Shown here: in pieces, positions 6,095-34,677 of the stretch
Layout: every line of letters starts with the position of its first letter
How positions within the stretch are numbered: the first letter of the stretch is position 1
DNA from: Citrus sinensis
Lineage: Eukaryota > Streptophyta > Magnoliopsida > Sapindales > Rutaceae
Length of the DNA: 64,000 nt
Assembly (NCBI RefSeq): GCF_022201045.2
Contig: NC_068558.1
Location: forward strand, 40,815,501-40,879,500
Reading direction: 5' to 3'
Notes under the pieces: generated by a model
The model's database searches: none
What the model was told of the DNA's origin: nothing
The model's input: the letters and a program-made list of their open reading frames with translations, nothing else
Translations under genes and position numbers: made by a program

Positions 6095-6550
6095 AGCATT
6101 GTCGCGCGCGACAAGCAGTCATCGCGCGCGCGTGCCTGCGCCCGTCGCGCGCGACGAGTGCTTGTCGCGCGCGCGACGCGTGCTTGTCTCGCGCGTGACG
6201 CTTGCTTGTCGCGCGACGCGTGCTTGTCTCGCGCGCGACGCGTGCTTGTCGCGCGCGCGACAGTGCCATTGCGCGGGCGACGAGTGCTTGTCGCGCGGGC
6301 GACGAGTGCTTGTCGCGCGGGCGACGAGTGTCCATTAGGCGCGCTTTGCTTTGCTGTCCCGCGTGCCCCATTTTATGTTGCCATTGCGCCCGTGACATGC
6401 ATCCATTTAATTTTAATTTTTTATTTAAGTTTCTTCTCAAGGAACATGCGGTGATGACTTTTATTGGTAGTATTTTTATTTGTCCCATGAAATTGCTCTG
6501 TAATGTTAAGCGACAAGTTCTTGTCTCCCGTGCGACAATCTTGTCTTACA
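6095..6550. repeat. Palindrome cluster I in MULE (GC-rich GTGCTTGTCGCGCG array)
   Basis: From 6101 to 6330 a degenerate tandem array of about 20-28 bp units reads variations of GACGAGTGCTTGTCGCGCG and its complement, very GC-rich against an AT-rich background. A further inverted pair (GCGACAAGTTCTTGTC, GTGCGACAATCTTGTC) lies at 6509-6545. It shares the core GCGACAA / TTGTCGC with clusters at 10050 and 13684. Arg/Ala-rich frames cross it on both strands but are by-products of the repeat. Confidence 0.85.
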
Positions 6551-25992: not shown

Positions 25993-26565
25993 ACTTCAGT
26001 ATTCTATTTGGGGAGTTTGGTTACCAAGAGAGTGAGAAAATTTAGCAGTTTTGGATCGAAAATTCTCCAAGAGTTAATAGAGTAGCTTTAATACAGTTAT
26101 TTATTTATTTTTTTTTTTTAATGACATGATATAATATCAACGAAGGCCCTTCTGCAATTTTATATTTTGGGCGGATTGCTAACTTGCTAGTGATAATGTC
26201 AGCATGACCTATCAATTTTAGCAATCTACAAAATCTACCTTTTATGAGTTGTTTAAGCTATTGTTTTTTTTTTTTTTTTTCTCTCTCTCTCCAATGTTTA
26301 GATTTTTTTTAATCATGTCTTTGAATTTGTCCTATAAATTGAATTTTTAGAACAATGAAATACAATTATTCCCTCCCATTCGTCTTTTCTCCATAACTGC
26401 ATCCATCCATCATAAAGAACAATAAAAACTGACACCGCATCAACCATCAACGTCCACATCAGTGAATTCACTGATGTGGTTCATTTATTGCCCCCAAGGA
26501 ACACAAAGTTGCTCCCCAACACTTTTTCTCTCTAGAATCGAAATTTCTTGCTTGCGGACCAAATA
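25880..26565. repeat. Family P segmental duplication, copy 2
   Basis: Matches 59565-62700 without the two insertions found there: TTTTGTGACGAACT (25895), GTTTGGTTACCAAGAGAGTG (26017), GACATGATATAATATC (26122), GCTAACTTGCTAGTGATAATG (26177) and GCCCCCAAGGAACACAAAG (26490). It joins GH3 coding DNA at ~25876 and family ABC DNA at ~26565, so both ends are recombination junctions. Confidence 0.82.
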
Positions 26566-26724
26566 TGTCGATCGTAGTTCGCTCCTGAATCTTGACTCTT
26601 GTGAAGTCGATAGCGTGCGTTTGACGCGCATTCGGAGCGTGAGACTAAGGTAATCCCTTATCGCGCGTTCGCTTATCTCAACTGAAAGGGACGGGAACGC
26701 GGAATAGTTAAAAGCACCACATGC
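26565..26724. repeat. Family ABC duplication, copy B, fragment left of the inserted element
   Basis: AATATGTCGATCGTAGTTCG through GCGTGCGTTTGACGCGCATT to the ACCACATGC target site; continues at 34669 beyond the inserted 7.9-kb element. Confidence 0.85.
26716..26724. repeat. 9-bp TSD ACCACATGC, left copy
   Basis: Perfect duplicate of 34669-34677, immediately outside the GGACACGG termini. Confidence 0.92.
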
Positions 26725-26950
26725 GGACACGGCTACCATGCAGGGCATAAAATCCCTGTATGGTACAGGGGCTGCCCTTGAGCCGTTGGATTCAGCTTAT
26801 TTGAATCCAATGGCTGGGGTTTTAGTTTGAAAAAAAAAAGAAAAAAATGAATAAAAGTAGAAAAAAATATGGCAACCGGTTCAACGGGGGTAGTTACAGT
26901 ACGTAGAAAATTACCGTTGGATTGAATAGAGTGGATCCAATGGCTGAGAT
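26725..26950. repeat. Left-end hairpin cluster of the 7.9-kb element
   Basis: Stem 26734-26745 with 26754-26765 (TACCATGCAGGG / CCCTGTATGGTA, one mismatch). Stem 26781-26794 with 26802-26815 (AGCCGTTGGATTCA / TGAATCCAATGGCT). Stem about 26913-26925 with 26933-26945 (CCGTTGGAT / ATCCAATGG). The first stem resembles the outermost stem of the right end. Confidence 0.8.
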
Positions 26951-27119
26951 TTGTTTTATTATTCAATAATTAAAAAAATTTGAAAAAACAAACCTGTAAA
27001 ACTGAAATAAACAAAAAAAATCCCCACCACTCACTCACTCACCTCACCGTCACCACTCCCTCACCTCACACACGTCAAACACCTCACCACTCCTCACCTC
27101 ACACGCGCCTCACCACGGC

Positions 27120-27290
27120 CATCAACGGTGGCAACTGAAGGAGTTCCTAGGCAACGATCAACGGCGGCACAAGGACAGGCTGATCTCCGCCGTCGGCAAC
27201 GATCAACGAAGGCAGAAGGATGGGCTGATGTTATTCGTTGACAATGATCAACGGCGGCACAAGCACAACCCTGTTCCTCGCGCAATCCAT
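27120..27290. repeat. GC-rich tandem repeat inside the 7.9-kb element
   Basis: About three degenerate copies of a ~55-bp unit built on GGCAACGATCAACGGCGG ... GGCTGATCTCCGCCGTC. GC-rich 5' segments are typical of Pack-type elements. Short ORFs here are not supported. Confidence 0.65.
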
Positions 27291-27605
27291 CTCCAACGCT
27301 AGAATAGCTGTCGTCAAGGGCTTCGGTGGGACGCCACAACTATTGCTCAACCACCTCTGCGCTGCTACTGTACCATCATCTCCTCACCGCACGACATCAG
27401 AACTATTGTTCTAGCTTCGCCCCACATTCGCTTTACCACCAGAATCATCAAGCAAAACGTTAGTATTAGATTAGATTTTCTGAATTAATTTATAATTAGG
27501 GTTTGATTTGAACTGTATCAAGATATTATTTTGCTAATTTGTAGTTATGTGGTTTTTTTTTTGTAATTAAAGTCTTAATTTTTTCCTTCCAATGGACTTG
27601 TGCAG

Positions 27606-28437
27606 CGATGCTGACGGGTTCAACTGACCGTTCAATTCTGGCCACGGATGTGGAGACTGGAGCCACTATTGCTCGTCTTGAGGATTCTCATGAGTAAGTT
27701 CCCATATTTATTTTTTCTCAAATTATTGATCATTAATGGTCCAAGAAATATGGTTCTGATGCTCTGATATGTTATCTATTTGCAGGGATGCTATTTATAG
27801 TTTGATCAACGTGACAGAGTCAACTGTTGCCTCTGGCGATGATCAAGGTTGTATTAAGGTGGTTTTCTTCCCCAGTAGCTGCTATGAAACTGGTTTCTTC
27901 TCATTTCCTTCTCTTTGAAAGCCGTAACAGTGTTTAGGAAAGTATTGTCATAAGTATAGCGTCTAGCAAATGAATTTCCTGCAAACATAGTCCAATCAGC
28001 TATTTACATGATTGAAGTCTACTTCCAATGACATTTGGTTTTCTCCAATGGCTTTTTGCTTATTGGCTTTGAGGTTCTTTAATTATCTTCTTACTTTTGT
28101 GATCTTTGATGAATGTAAAATCATTTCTAATTACATTTTATCATTAAATGATATCTAAAGTTCATTGTTTTTATTTGAAAATATTAACATTTGTTTTTTT
28201 TATTTGTCTATTTGTTTTTTAGGATATTTAATCACTGTGCTGAATCTGTTTGAATTATTAATTTGCTTTTAAGGGTTCAATTTTTTATTCAACCCACTTA
28301 TCTTTTTGTTTGATTTTTACTGCATTGGAGGTATGAGATACCAGACAACGTACTCTCTGCAATTCTTTTGACGCTCATAAGGAATATGTTTCAGATATGA
28401 CTTTTGCAGCTGATGCAATGAAACTGCTAGGAACAAG
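27606..28437 (+). pseudogene. WDR55: Captured WD40-repeat gene fragment (WDR55-like), with introns
   Basis: Three consecutive exons with retained introns: 27606-27693 (LTGSTDRSILATDVETGA), 27786-27858 (INVTESTVASGDDQGCIK) and 28331-28437 (FDAHKEYVSDMTFAADAM). They match the first part of plant WDR55 homologs, nuclear WD40 proteins linked to ribosome biogenesis and DDB1 binding. Splice phases are conserved. The third exon opens GTA TGA GAT ACC where the family has V-W-D-T, so the tryptophan of the WD dipeptide is a stop. No 5' or later WD exons were found. The fragment is therefore a captured, dead gene piece rather than a working gene. Capture with introns shows it was acquired at DNA level, as in Pack-MULEs. 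Confidence 0.85.
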
Positions 28438-31070
28438 GTACTTTAATGCTGTTACTCTTTAATGATTCTGCTTTTTTTTCCCTTTCAATTTGAAAAGGTC
28501 TTCAGATTGTTTGCTTTCAGCTAGACATCCTGCACACAGTTCCATATATTTATGTGTTTAAATATCAGTTGTTTTGATGAAGGTTGATTTATTATCCTTT
28601 AAATGCTGGAAATTTTTTGAACCTGAGAGCTGTAACAGAGCATGATGATTGATTTGGGTTTGATTTTAATTGTTGATTTGGGTATGAATTAAATTTTTTA
28701 TTGATTTATAGTGTTGGTTTATGTCTTTCCCTTCTCAAGCTTTTGGGCAACAGTGCATGGATCAACAGCAACAAAGAGCAAGGGCTACACAGGCACAGCC
28801 TCGGCTTCAGCCTTAGCCTCAACCTGGCGATTTATCTGCTATACTCGGTGTATTCCTCACTTCCATTGCTATTGTCTCACTGGCAAATTCTCTCTTATAT
28901 CCTAATTCGTGCTTTTACGCATATTTAGTCACTTTCAATCTGGTTTATCAGTTAATGGTGACTTAAATCTTCTTTTTTTAATTGTTTGAGTTGAATCTTG
29001 TAGCTCTGTAAATATTAAGTGTTGGGTTCTCATCTGAATAAAGGGCTTTCCTTGGAGTGAAATAGTGAAATGAACAACGATTTCAATTGACTAGTTGTAA
29101 AGTTTAATTTTGTCCTAAAATGAGCAGTTCAACAATATATTATCATGGGCAGTGTTTTTACCCAGATTTTGCTTGGTTGCTTGCCTACTAGTGTGAACAC
29201 TTTATTGCTTTGAAAACTCATTTGCTATATTAATGCTTTGGTGGTAAGTTTCTTGTATGTATATCTGTAGTTATATTATTTTGATTGGAATTTTCTGTAT
29301 TCAACTCTGAAACTGACTTGCTGGATTTAAGTAATAATTAGTTATTTTAGTGAAAGTTTGAGCATTTGTGTAGGTATGAAAGTAATATTAAGTTCATTTT
29401 GAACAATAGGTTGTTTTGATGAATATAGCTTTTGAAAGAATTTTCAAATGATGTCAATGCCGAACAATAGATTGTCATTGCTTCCTGGAAGAATAGACCA
29501 ATCAAGTTACCTTGTCCTACCTGGAAATTATTCGGAGGGGGCAGAATCTGTTGGATGATGAACTTTGCTGCGGCTTTGTTGCAATTTTGTTGGCTGCAGA
29601 ATTTTAGGCTTGGCTTCAGTAAATATAGGTTGATATTTGCAAGGCAACTTTTATATGGCTTATGTAAAATTTTTCTTTTTCCATTTACATTGCTGGGTTT
29701 CGTTGTAGTTGCTGAGCAAGTGAGAGAACACATTCAATTTTATACAACAATTATAAGTATTGACCATGAGGCAGGATACTGGAAAATTGTTGTGTTATTA
29801 CCCCTCAATGGTAAAATGATTGCAATTGGTATGGTGATCACAATTGATGACTTTTGAATGAAACCATATGTTTTAATTATTTATTTATCCTGTTATTTAT
29901 TTTAATATTTCATTTGCATGGATGTTTATTTCACAAGATACTTATTTGAAAAATGTCAAAAAAAAATGTTATATTGCTAAAAAATAAATACGTTGTTAAT
30001 AAGCTGTGTTGAGCTTTTACTTTAAAACTATTTACCTTTCTTCCTTTTTTTATTTGCCGTAAATTTATGCAATATATCAATCCACTTTTTTTTCGGAGAT
30101 GGTACTTGTAATAAGGTTGGATGATGCACTTGGTGTAATGTACTAGATTTTGGTGGATTTTTAGGATGATATGTAGAAAATATTATGTTTGACATAGGAA
30201 TAGTTAATTTGATTTATTTTCATTAAATTGTGTTTCCTATAATTAGTTAAAATAAAATAAAATAAATTGATTAAATTGATTTAGCGGATCGGAAAATAAG
30301 CCTATAAATTTGTGTGGGAATTAATAGAATTAAAAATGGTTGCAAGGTTATTTATAGTGGAGATTTCGGCTATAAAAAGCGCCAGTGGAATATAAGAGCT
30401 CTTCCGAATTTATTTGTGAGGCCACTTATTGCAACCACTAGTATTTTACTCATTTTAGTTTTTTTTTTAATCAAACTTAATAGTTAAGTCATATTTTGCT
30501 TTAGCACACTTATTTCTTCACTTTAATGGTTCACTTTCACAAATTTCACTCAAATGTGAAAAATTTTAATTTCCACTATAACTTAGTTGAAAGTCATTCA
30601 TTGGGTTTACTACTTTTTCAAGCCTTAATCAACAAATTGAAGGCATACATTGCTTAACTAGAATTTCAATCATAATTACAAAAAATTAAAACAATTAGGA
30701 TTATTGATATAATAATTAACAACCAAAAATTAAATATTTATATATTCAATTGTACTTTTCTTTAATAAAAAGCGAGTGCTATATTTCAAAGATTAAAATT
30801 AAATATAAGACACTAAGAGGCTTTGATAGTTCTCCGACCAAACGAAAGATTTAAAACACTTAAAAGCAAATTCGGATTGGAATATTATTATTTTGTTGGT
30901 TACCTTTATTCATAATACAAATACTTCGAAAGTGATTATATTTATAAAAAATTAGATGAAAAATGTTTACAAAATAATATTATTGAATGTTTAAAACGAA
31001 CACTTGTAGTATAAGGTATGACTATTGAAAGATTAAAATCAGTGCACGAAATTAAAGTGACCAGAAGCTT
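28438..31070. other. Noncoding interior of the 7.9-kb element
   Basis: AT-rich, intron-like DNA. A Gln-rich frame at about 28738-28850 (CMDQQQQRARATQ) between a CTCAAG acceptor-like and a GGTGTATT donor-like site might be another captured exon; it contains a TAG. ORFs near 29347-29857 lack recognisable domains. Confidence 0.45.
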
Positions 31071-31073
31071 ACA

Positions 31074-31500
31074 AGCCGTAAACGGCTTGCCGGTTTGACT
31101 TGAACCGGAAATCCGGTTATGTTCCAGCAAGTCCTTCACTCGAATCCGGTTTTCCGGATATCACAAACCGGCTTGCCGGTTGGATCCAGAAGATAGCACG
31201 TTAAAACCGGCTTACCGGTTTCCTTAACCGGTTGGCCGAATGAATCCAGAATGCTGCCAAAGTGCAGCTCGAATCCGGATTTCCGGATTTACAGAACCGG
31301 CTATCCGGTTAAATCCAGTGAAGGCCATACGCGAATCCGGTTTTCCGGATTGATAATCCGGTTATCCGAATATTGACCCGAGAGCAACCAAAGAAAATGC
31401 GGCTCACCGATTTGAACAATCCGGTTATCCGGAATTTGTCCCGAGAGAAATCAATAAGAAAAACGGTTTTCCGGATGAGAAGAAGTGGTATACCGGTTTA
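31074..31500. repeat. Array of ~13 CCGG-type dyads
   Basis: Repeated imperfect palindromes such as AACCGGAAATCCGGTT (31101), AACCGGCTTGCCGGTT (31165), AATCCGGATTTCCGGATT (31273), AACCGGCTATCCGGTT (31297) and AATCCGGTTTTCCGGATT (31332). They are spaced about 20-65 bp apart, with partly conserved spacers containing AATCCAG. Most keep a 7-8 bp arm and a 2-4 base centre. Confidence 0.88.
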
Positions 31501-31635
31501 GACTTGGGAAATCTTTTTGTCTCTAATTGGGTAAGCTCTTATACTTGTATTACACACACCATTTTATTTTTGGCCTTTTAAAATTGCTTAATTTTAAATC
31601 ATTTTGAGATTTAAAACCTTTCAATAAGCCATTTA

Positions 31636-32437
31636 GGGTGCGTTTGGCACACTATATTGTATTATGCTGTATTGTATTATTTTAATGCTGGTATATTGTA
31701 TTATGTTGTATTGCGTTAGCATTGTATTATAACAATATTGTAGAATGTTTGATTAATTAAATTAAATAATTAAAAAATAATATATATTAATACTTAGAAA
31801 AATAATAAATATAGAAATCTTAAAATTTGTATTATAATTATGATAAAAAATTTTATAAAATTTAATATTATATGTAAATAATAAATTTAGATTATAATTA
31901 ATATTATAACTGTTAATATAAATTAATAAATTATTATTCAATAATATTAAATTATATTTTAATTTACAATATATTATTATTTTTACATTTTAATATATTA
32001 ATAAATTTTTAATTTAATATAAATAATTATAAATATTGAAATTTGCATAAATTTAAATAATATTAATTTTAAAATTAATATTAATGTAAATAATATTATA
32101 ATATTAATATATTATTTTTATATGAATCATTAATAAATAAAATAATATTATCATATAATTTATTTTTATATTTTATTCATTATATTAGTATTTAATAATA
32201 AAATAATTTATTTTTATAATATTTTAATAAAATAAATTTGCCTCAATTGAGGCAAAAAGCTTCCGCATTACGCAAACCCGAGGTTCCCTTGGGTTTGCGT
32301 AATGCGACCCCATGCCTTATTATGCTGTATTATAATGCAGTATAATGAGGTCTCAAATTTTACCAAACAACTTCTTGGTAATAAATTAATGTGAATAGTG
32401 GTATAATACCACACAATCCCATGCACTAAACGCGCCC
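31636..32437. mobile_element. 802-bp PIF/Harbinger-like MITE nested in the 7.9-kb element
   Basis: The left end GGGTGCGTTTGGCAC and the right end (reverse complement GGGCGCGTTTAGTGC) form short TIRs flanked by a TTA duplication (31633-31635, 32438-32440), the preference of PIF/Harbinger elements. The interior is extremely AT-rich with no coding. A 32270-32312 inverted repeat (GCATTACGCAAACCC / GGGTTTGCGTAATGC) sits near the right end. Confidence 0.75.
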
Positions 32438-32569
32438 TTAATGCATGAAATATAAAATCATAAAATTACAAGTATATCAAGCTATCTAATTCATGAAGCA
32501 TAAATTCATATAATAACAAACATATCAAGCCATGTAGTAAAACATAAATCAAGATGCAACATTCATCAT

Positions 32570-34290
32570 TCCAACAAACATTAAACATTTTACTTAAAAT
32601 ATGCAACAGCGAACATAAAATATGAGTACCTCCATAACAGTGAACATACAACGTCAAACATGAAACGTAGAACAGCAAACATGAAACGTGGAACGTAAAC
32701 ATGAAACGGGGGCAAAAAAGAAAAATTTCGGGGTATTTGAAAAATCAGTACATGAAACATTGCACAACCAACATGAAACATATCACTTAAAATATGCAAC
32801 AACAAACATAAAATATGAGTCCCTCCGTAACATGGAACATGAAACATAAAACATGAAACGTAGAACAACAAACATGAAACAGAGAACGTAAACATGAAAC
32901 GGGGGCAAAAAAGAAAAATTTCGGGGTATTTAAAAAATCAGTACATGAAACATTGCACAACCAACATGAAACATATCACTTAAAATATGCAACAACGAAC
33001 ATAAAATATGAGTCCCTCCGTAACAGTGAACATGAAACATAAAACATGAAACATAGAACATCAAACATGAAACATAGAACGTAAACATGAAACGGGTGCA
33101 AAAAAAAAATTTCGGGGTATTTGAAAAATCAGTACATGAAATATTGCACAACCAACATGAAACATATCACTTAAAATATGCAACAACGAACATAAAATAT
33201 GAGTCCCTCCGTAACAGTGAACATGAAACATAGAACATCAAACATGAAACATAGAACGTAAACATGAAACGGGTGCAAAAAAAAAAATTCCGGGGTATTT
33301 GAAAAATCAGTACATGAAACATTGCACAACCAACATGAAACATATCACTTAAAATATGCAACAACGAACATAAAATATGAGTCCCTCCGTAACAGTGAAC
33401 ATGAAACATAAAACATGAAACATAGAACATCAAACATGAAACATAGAACGTAAACATGAAACGGGTGCAAAAAAAAAAATTGCGGGGTATTTGAAAAATC
33501 AGTACATGAAACATTGCACAACCAACATGAAACATATCACTTAAAATATGCAACAACGAACATAAAATATGAGTCCCTCCGTAACAGTGAACATGAAACA
33601 TAAAACATGAAACATAGAACATCAAACATGAAACATAGAACGTAAACATGAAACGGGTGCAAAAAAAAAAATTGCGGGGTATTTGAAAAATCAGTACATA
33701 AAACATTGCACAACCAACATGAAACATATCACTTAAAATATGCAACAACGAACATAAAATATGAGTCCCTCCGTAACAGTGAACATGAAACATAAAACAT
33801 GAAACATAGAACATCAAACATGAAACATAGAACGTAAACATGAAACGGGTGCAAAAAAAAAAATTCCGGGGTATTTGAAAAATCAGCACATGAAACATTG
33901 CACAACCAACATGAAACATATCACTTAAAATATGCAACAACGAACATAAAATATGAGTCCCTCCGTAACAGTGAACATGAAACATAAAATATGAAACATA
34001 GAACATCAAACATGAAACATAGAACGTAAACATGAAACGGGTGCAAAAAAAAAAATTGCGGGGTATTTGAAAAATCAGTACATGAAACATTGCACAACCA
34101 ACATGAAACATATCACTTAAAATATGCAACAACAAACATAAAATATGAGTCCCTCCATAACAGTGAACATGAAACATAAAACATGAAACATAGAACATCA
34201 AACATGAAATATAGAACGTAAACATGAAACGGGTGCAAAAAAAAAAATTTTGGGGTATTTGAAAAATCAGTACATGAAACATAAAACATA
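32570..34290. repeat. Minisatellite, ~192-bp unit, about nine copies
   Basis: Each unit contains ATTGCACAACCAACATGAAA, CTTAAAATATGCAACAACG, AATATGAGTCCCTCC and GGGGTATTTGAAAAATCAG. Marker positions (GCACAACC at about 32762, 32955, 33147, 33324, 33517, 33710, 33899, 34092) give steps of mostly 190-193 bp and one of ~177. Units are themselves built from ACATGAAAC subrepeats. Since 192 is a multiple of three, a minus-strand frame (34282-33167) stays open for 371 codons; I regard it as a by-product. Confidence 0.9.
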
Positions 34291-34525
34291 AAATATGAAA
34301 CTTAAAATGTTAAACATGAGATAAATTTCATAAAAAATGAATAAAATTTTTGTCTTTTTGTTAACACACATTTTATTTTATTTTTTAAAATATTTATAAT
34401 AAAAAATATTTTTTTCATTTTTACTTTACTTGTCATTTTTTACTTATTATTATTATTATTTTTTAAATATTATTCGTTTTAAATATTTTTTATTTTAATT
34501 TATTTAAATAAAAAAAATATATTAA

Positions 34526-34660
34526 TGGCAGCAACCGGCTGTAAAACCGGTTGCTGCCAGTCAAAAAAGTTGTTTGGCTGCCAGATGGCAGCCAAACAAC
34601 AAAGGGGTCAATAAATTGACCCCCTCTATGATACAGGGACTTTGAGTCCCTGTATCATAG
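34526..34660. repeat. Right-end array of four perfect hairpins in the 7.9-kb element
   Basis: Stems: 34526-34538 with 34547-34559 (TGGCAGCAACCGG); 34569-34583 with 34586-34600 (GTTGTTTGGCTGCCA, 2-base centre); 34604-34612 with 34615-34623 (GGGGTCAAT); 34626-34641 with 34645-34660 (CTATGATACAGGGACT, 3-base loop). All four are perfectly paired and together fill ~135 bp up to the terminal CCGTGTCC. Confidence 0.93.
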
Positions 34661-34668
34661 CCGTGTCC

Positions 34669-34677
34669 ACCACATGC
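34669..34677. repeat. 9-bp TSD ACCACATGC, right copy
   Basis: Perfect match to 26716-26724. Confidence 0.92.

Follow-up and report, generated by a model that had tools for sequence, protein, structure and literature searches.

The window analyzed here, a stretch of 64,000 nucleotides from the genome of Citrus sinensis (RefSeq assembly GCF_022201045.2, contig NC_068558.1, positions 40,815,501 to 40,879,500 of the forward strand), contains a transposable element with ends of the Mutator-like element (MULE) type, flanked on either side by a perfect 9-bp target site duplication (TSD), ACCACATGC. The termini are perfect over 11 bp (GGACACGGCTA from 26725, TAGCCGTGTCC ending at 34668), within a longer, degenerate terminal inverted repeat (TIR), and the right end carries four palindromes in series (H1 to H4). 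The element and its ends comprise the following features, given in window coordinates.

26716-26724, unstranded: left TSD copy, ACCACATGC, from the sequence
26725-34668, plus strand: non-autonomous MULE-type element, 7944 bp, with no transposase match inside
26725-26774, plus strand: left TIR, perfect over 11 bp and degenerate over about 50 bp, identical to the right end in 39 of 51 aligned columns
26736-26763, unstranded: left hairpin H1, a 10-bp stem with a G.T pair (25 of 25 aligned left-end rows), from alignment and folding
26754-26770, unstranded: overlapping left palindrome CCCTGTA-TGG-TACAGGG, arms of 7 bp
26781-26815, unstranded: left hairpin 2, a 14-bp stem with one mismatch and a perfect 9-bp core at 26786-26810
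26913-26944, unstranded: imperfect second version of left hairpin 2, found by eye
34526-34559, unstranded: right hairpin H4, arms of 13 bp, loop of 8, from inverted-repeat search and DNA folding (as for H3, H2 and H1)
34569-34600, unstranded: right hairpin H3, arms of 15 bp, loop of 2
34604-34623, unstranded: right hairpin H2, arms of 9 bp, loop of 2
34626-34660, unstranded: right hairpin H1, arms of 16 bp, loop of 3, within the right TIR
34619-34668, minus strand: right TIR, degenerate, about 50 bp
34669-34677, unstranded: right TSD copy, ACCACATGC, from the sequence

Each end consists of a TIR of about 50 bp that is degenerate and palindromic: the left and right termini of this copy can be aligned over that length, the stretch of homology is itself palindromic, and both termini have the same 11 outermost bp and the palindrome H1 (CAGGG..CCCTG). 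A first-pass annotation, made from the sequence alone, had correctly recognized the perfect TSD and the perfect 11-bp termini but took the latter for the whole TIR, which is rejected here; the CAGGG..CCCTG theme that it noticed in the outermost stems is real, and is common to the two ends because they are homologous over about 50 bp. The long TIRs that pair across the element in Foldback-type MULEs are absent, the ends diverging further inward.

The four perfect inverted repeats with centres of 2-8 bases that the same annotation placed in 135 bp of the right end are all present (34526-34660; arms and loops 13/8, 15/2, 9/2 and 16/3). When the last 140 bp were dinucleotide-shuffled 1000 times, such stems numbered 0.018 on average and 2 at most. 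Folding of 34526-34668 with DNA parameters gave z-scores of -15.4 on one strand and -13.9 on the other, with 0 of 200 shuffles this low, versus -1.4 for a control stretch from the interior of the element. The left end is weaker than had been claimed: of three reported inverted repeats one is perfect (26786-26810, 9 bp, the only perfect stem there with arms of at least 8 bp), but the other two are imperfect or overlapping. Its folding z-score is -5.5, again with 0 of 200 shuffles this low. H2, H3 and H4 are confined to the right end and are absent from the left end according to the left-end alignment.

The element belongs to a mobile family. Exact GGACACGGCTA sites occur 84 times in the host genome, versus 21 for the reversed pattern; together with the stem and folding shuffles, this rejects a chance origin of the ends. 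The proposed search of the genome for the same termini with 9-bp TSDs yielded 31 complete copies, so that an orphan element is likewise rejected: 19 were obtained from inward-facing pairs of GGACACGGCTA (the window's copy included) and 12 more by searches with the ends. TSDs are perfect over 9 bp in 27 of these copies, match at 8 of 9 positions in two and 7 of 9 in one, and are lacking in one, and non-self flanks agree at a mean of 2.5 of 9 positions (maximum 7, 930 comparisons). Additional old or partial ends lie outside the 31 copies counted, as do two incompletely read candidates (C9:6689031-6700471 and C8:15893873-15931058). Complete copies range from 2.5 to 13.4 kb. The copy in the window is 99.5% identical to C7_3.17 over 7974 bp, and C1_2.60 is 99.8% identical to C4_6.44 over 7145 bp; thus, the family has spread recently. 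In an alignment binned at 200 bp, the stretch 32725-34525 is covered by all 30 other copies and the first 200 bp by 25 of them on average, and parts of the middle of the element (27525-28525) are common to just two others; the widely shared parts are therefore the left 200 bp and the right 1.9 kb, approximately.

The partner element with the same ends and a transposase gene, for which the first-pass annotation had proposed to look, exists. Siblings of 10.5-12.2 kb with these ends encode a FAR1-MULE-SWIM transposase and, on the opposite strand, a ULP1-like gene. Transposase matches were found in 8 of the 31 copies, six of which have FAR1, MULE and C-terminal matches together with ULP1-like matches on the other strand, one of which has FAR1, MULE and the first part of ULP, and one of which has only FAR1/MULE remnants. 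A frame of 726 codons is open in all three copies checked (C1_19.70, C2_27.89 and C4_26.10); C4_20.22 has a stop within the FAR1 part. In Pfam, the sibling transposase (L027:2945-5122) matched MULE (1.3e-28), FAR1 (8.1e-22) and SWIM (3.6e-5) above the cut-off and a zinc knuckle below it, and the antisense ULP1 piece matched Peptidase_C48 (2.5e-6) over 25 residues. The sibling frame corresponds to a Citrus sinensis protein named FAR1-RELATED SEQUENCE (100% identity over 96% of its length), and many of the 120 similarity matches listed bear that name.

The search that detects a transposase in those eight copies detects none inside the copy in the window, which carries instead a fragment of a host gene between its ends.

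27605-27860, plus strand: WDR55-like host gene fragment, two exon-like pieces read by eye, with a Pfam match on the joined pieces

The joined pieces gave a Pfam match to the WDR55 family (E-value 2.8e-13, 50 bits) that is below its curated cut-off of 200. The fragment is common to two of the 30 other copies (C7_3.17 and C3_42.11). Because a WDR55-like fragment is present and a transposase match is not, the copy in the window is Pack-MULE-like and non-autonomous.

By its domains, the family appears to be a MULE of the Jittery/FAR1 type, a known kind, with a variant right end. The sibling transposase has the FAR1, MULE and SWIM domains of such elements, which the copy in the window itself does not match, and the 9-bp TSD, which 27 of 31 copies have in perfect form, is within the 8-11 bp given for MULEs generally (PMC6446971). 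According to the part of that source consulted, the dicot/monocot Jittery group has an N-terminal FAR1 domain, a C-terminal SWIM or CCHC domain, TIRs that measure 39-292 bp or are lacking, and TSDs given as 8 bp or left unspecified; the degenerate TIR of about 50 bp falls within this range. Among the closest described relatives is CitMule of Citrus clementina (PMC4334395, in part), which likewise has FAR1, SWIM and MULE domains, is related to Jittery, and has 9-bp TSDs and a degenerate TIR (100% over 17 bp, 88% over 34 bp, 78% over 65 bp). CitMule differs in its length of 6.8-6.9 kb and its five-exon transcript, and an array of end palindromes is absent from the available portion of its description; its printed 18-base topoisomerase motif, the sole CitMule sequence compared, has 3-7 mismatches at best over the 31 copies.

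Other relatives share one or another of these characters, as far as the sections of the reports consulted go. Jittery-like, ULP1-bearing MULEs of grapevine, and the KI-MULEs cited with them, also have a ULP-like gene beside a MULE transposase and 9-nt TSDs, but the words "hairpin" and "palindrom" are nowhere in the text of that paper that was available (PMC2528002). MuTAnT of Medicago, with the FARE elements cited in the same report, has a Jittery-similar transposase, a 9-nt TSD and hairpin-prone ends, but in MuTAnT long, near-identical TIRs form a foldback, whereas the citrus hairpins are local and the two ends unlike (PMC4486113). The Mutator/Foldback element Tm1 of root-knot nematodes also has a 9-bp TSD, composite structured ends, and both transposase-bearing and deleted forms, but its ends are built from 13-15 bp units whose number varies, and its transposase is of the Phantom type (PMC3169594). 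Among the matches listed in the literature on hairpin or palindromic MULE ends (titles and beginnings of abstracts, with few subscription papers and no Repbase), none was a MULE whose ends bear local hairpins in series. The first-pass annotation knew of no described family with this architecture; that stands, within the literature covered, for the one-sided array of local palindromes, but a citrus FAR1-MULE with a degenerate TIR and 9-bp TSDs was already known in CitMule.

The right array varies among copies. Perfect right stems number four in 16 copies, three in 5, two in 2, one in 3 and none in 5, by a strict perfect-arm rule under which a single stem mismatch lowers the count though the hairpin is still recognizable; control windows from the interior average 0 to 0.29 stems, with a maximum of 3. 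Copies without the hairpins had been named beforehand as grounds for doubting the proposed architecture; 15 copies lack at least one perfect right stem. Thirteen of these 15 have TSDs that are perfect or differ by one base, and the breaks in their arrays may postdate insertion. In three clusters of closely related copies (at least 98% identity over at least 5 kb) all 10 members have four perfect stems, versus 6 of the 21 other copies; age alone could explain this excess in the young clusters, which represent only three lineages.

Palindromes that extrude as cruciforms or undergo template switching are expected to show in-place flips and arm loss, and both are found. One arm is gone in several copies; the inner arm of H2 is missing from both C6_12.89 and C8_15.81, each of which has perfect TSDs, and this lesion may have a shared origin. 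Each hairpin was compared with its consensus and with the reverse complement of the consensus (22 rows by 4 hairpins, 88 comparisons), and inversion was flagged in 21 comparisons, of which 7 are clear and 14 were dropped as the hairpin is degraded or truncated. The clear in-place inversions affect H1 in C3_20.91, C3_20.05, C8_14.87 and C8_15.66, H2 in C9_26.74, H3 in C3_20.05 and H4 in C8_15.81; those of H1 and H4 are strong, being supported by several bases. The H1 flip label (six copies, two of them with a disrupted H1) requires three changes on the left-end tree, two of them forced by well-supported branches, a count that recombination between ends would likewise raise. The flips point to extrusion or template switching of the palindromes. 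Small inversions in plastid DNA are similarly in place and tied to palindromes, but lie in plastid spacers and not at the ends of nuclear transposons (PMC2903610, in the part consulted).

The reading preferred here, with a probability of roughly 0.7, is that this element is a Pack-MULE-like, non-autonomous member of a FAR1/Jittery-type MULE family of sweet orange, that the sibling transposase moves it by binding the H1 dyad, and that H2-H4 are accessory or passengers. The FAR1-MULE transposase of the siblings would mobilize this copy in trans by cut and paste. Recognition would involve the GGACACGGCTA terminus and the CAGGG..CCCTG palindrome as a dyad of half-sites, the latter putatively bound in a dimer-like manner as ordinary duplex DNA. 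H2-H4 might be accessory sites of the right end or simply passengers, and near-perfect palindromes there may occasionally extrude or template-switch, leaving in-place flips or deleted arms.

Covariation was examined in three alignments, consisting of 21 of the 22 distinct right ends (C8_15.66, interrupted by other sequence, being omitted), 25 of the 31 left ends (less six rows that are duplicates over the first 100 bases), and 33 pooled rows of H1 (15 left ends and 12 of the 22 distinct right ends, together with six old ends, 5 of them right and 1 left). Omitted from the pooled rows were right ends in which H1 is lost or altered (C4_20.22, C3_30.25, C3_44.53, C6_12.89, C8_15.81 and C3_20.05), near-duplicates, and those old ends whose H1 is incomplete (L049, L053 and L054). 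The H1 stem has the same geometry left and right; the two ends differ at two of its pairs, both compensated. In the pooled set, the paired cells (94.9% versus 89.4 in shuffles), the doubly changed cells (30 versus 12.1) and the covariation score (0.299 versus 0.201) were each reached by 0 of 500 shuffles; kinship alone can lift these three measures above shuffles where structure is absent, and seldom lifts the two others, the numbers of doubly changed pairs and of further pair types. The covariation of pooled H1 is weakly suggestive.

Several results weigh against the preferred reading. The two measures seldom lifted by kinship are unremarkable in pooled H1 (doubly changed pairs, 3 versus 2.0, reached by 126 of 500 shuffles; further pair types, 14 versus 13.0, reached by 127 of 500), the pooled signal is mostly one left/right split plus the double changes of the old right ends L050 and L052, of which L050 might have arisen by conversion from a left end, and the pooled set lacks right ends missing an H1 arm. 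Within each end, covarying pairs are at shuffle level: 1 versus 0.7 expected among the right ends over four hairpins, and 0 versus 1.2 expected among the left ends. Compensatory evolution, which the first-pass annotation had suggested checking, is accordingly rejected both for the right-end array within the family and for the left hairpins. Template switching would yield an identical pattern, the flips of H2 and H3 are supported by two loop bases apiece that might be point changes, and the 5-kb cut used to define the clusters omits a short pair (C7_1.85 and C9_17.13, 99.0% identical over 1978 bp) in which C9_17.13 has three perfect stems.

A possible but less probable explanation is that the right palindromes are passive: template switching during replication, acting on a quasi-palindrome, would have generated them and preserved their perfection, and they would have spread beside the TIR of successful source copies. 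Flips in place at the right hairpins and the loss of single arms in several copies agree with this, as do the disruption of the array in 15 of 31 copies and covariation within ends that does not exceed shuffles, but at both ends H1 is part of the homologous TIR and its stem has the same geometry, and the array is intact in the three young clusters.

The model of the first-pass annotation, in which extruded hairpins (cruciforms) themselves are the recognition structures and replace long TIRs, is unlikely. The very strong folding of the right end would suit it, as would the identical geometry of the H1 stem left and right with two compensated pairs between ends, the flips suggesting that the palindromes extrude or template-switch, and the retention of four stems by all three young clusters. 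However, the ends have a sequence TIR of about 50 bp; H2-H4 are missing on the left, where H1 has its G.T pair in every aligned row and one position of hairpin 2 fails to pair in 11 of 25 rows; arrays lacking at least one perfect right stem lie between TSDs that are perfect or one base off in 13 of 15 cases; and the robust measures of covariation stay at shuffle level, as they do within each end. Hairpins as substitutes for TIRs are thus not upheld. Similarly doubtful is a version in which the one-sided array of four right palindromes is a structural part of the transposition signal that extrudes in the nucleus, with the flips as its fossil record, and distinguishes right from left during assembly of the transposase complex. 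That the hairpins would act in RNA, by folding read-through transcripts at the right end and so affecting the termination, stability or silencing of element RNA, is improbable; local folds are strong on both strands (with DNA parameters only) but the array is also found in short copies without transposase matches.

The family offers a natural series of ends (intact, flipped, arm-less and old) that belong to a single, recently spread transposon whose candidate transposase genes lie in the same genome; the role of palindromes near a MULE end, whether as paired binding sites, as extruded structures or none, is therefore testable. The flips, if confirmed, would be evidence for the physical activity of short palindromes in the nuclear genome of a plant. 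In sweet orange, insertions of three MULEs have been reported to be the main source of detected spontaneous structural changes (31 of 40; PMC9832951, in the part consulted).

Next to the right array is a repeat that is also widespread in the family.

32572-34282, unstranded: right subterminal minisatellite with a period of 192/384 bp

Its 17-base unit word (at most 3 mismatches) occurs 5-15 times per copy in all 31 copies. In C8_15.66, where other sequence interrupts the end region, the minisatellite is about 3 kb from the right end. Its common position beside the right array suggests either a role in cis or hitch-hiking.

Further inward, a nested element (31636-32437, with ends GGGTGCGTTTGGC and ...GCGCCC and TTA on either side) is Harbinger/Tourist-like by eye, and its region (31640-32440) is common to 9 of the 30 other copies. 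An internal array of short palindromes of the CCGG type (AATCCGG..CCGGATT) occupies 31070-31500, and the region 31080-31500 is common to 11 of the 30. Outside the element, a perfect 26-bp palindrome (CCACATCAGTGAATTCACTGATGTGG, 26454-26479) lies about 250 bp beyond the left end, and three consecutive CGCGCGCGAC...GCGCGCG hairpins are found at 6103-6257.

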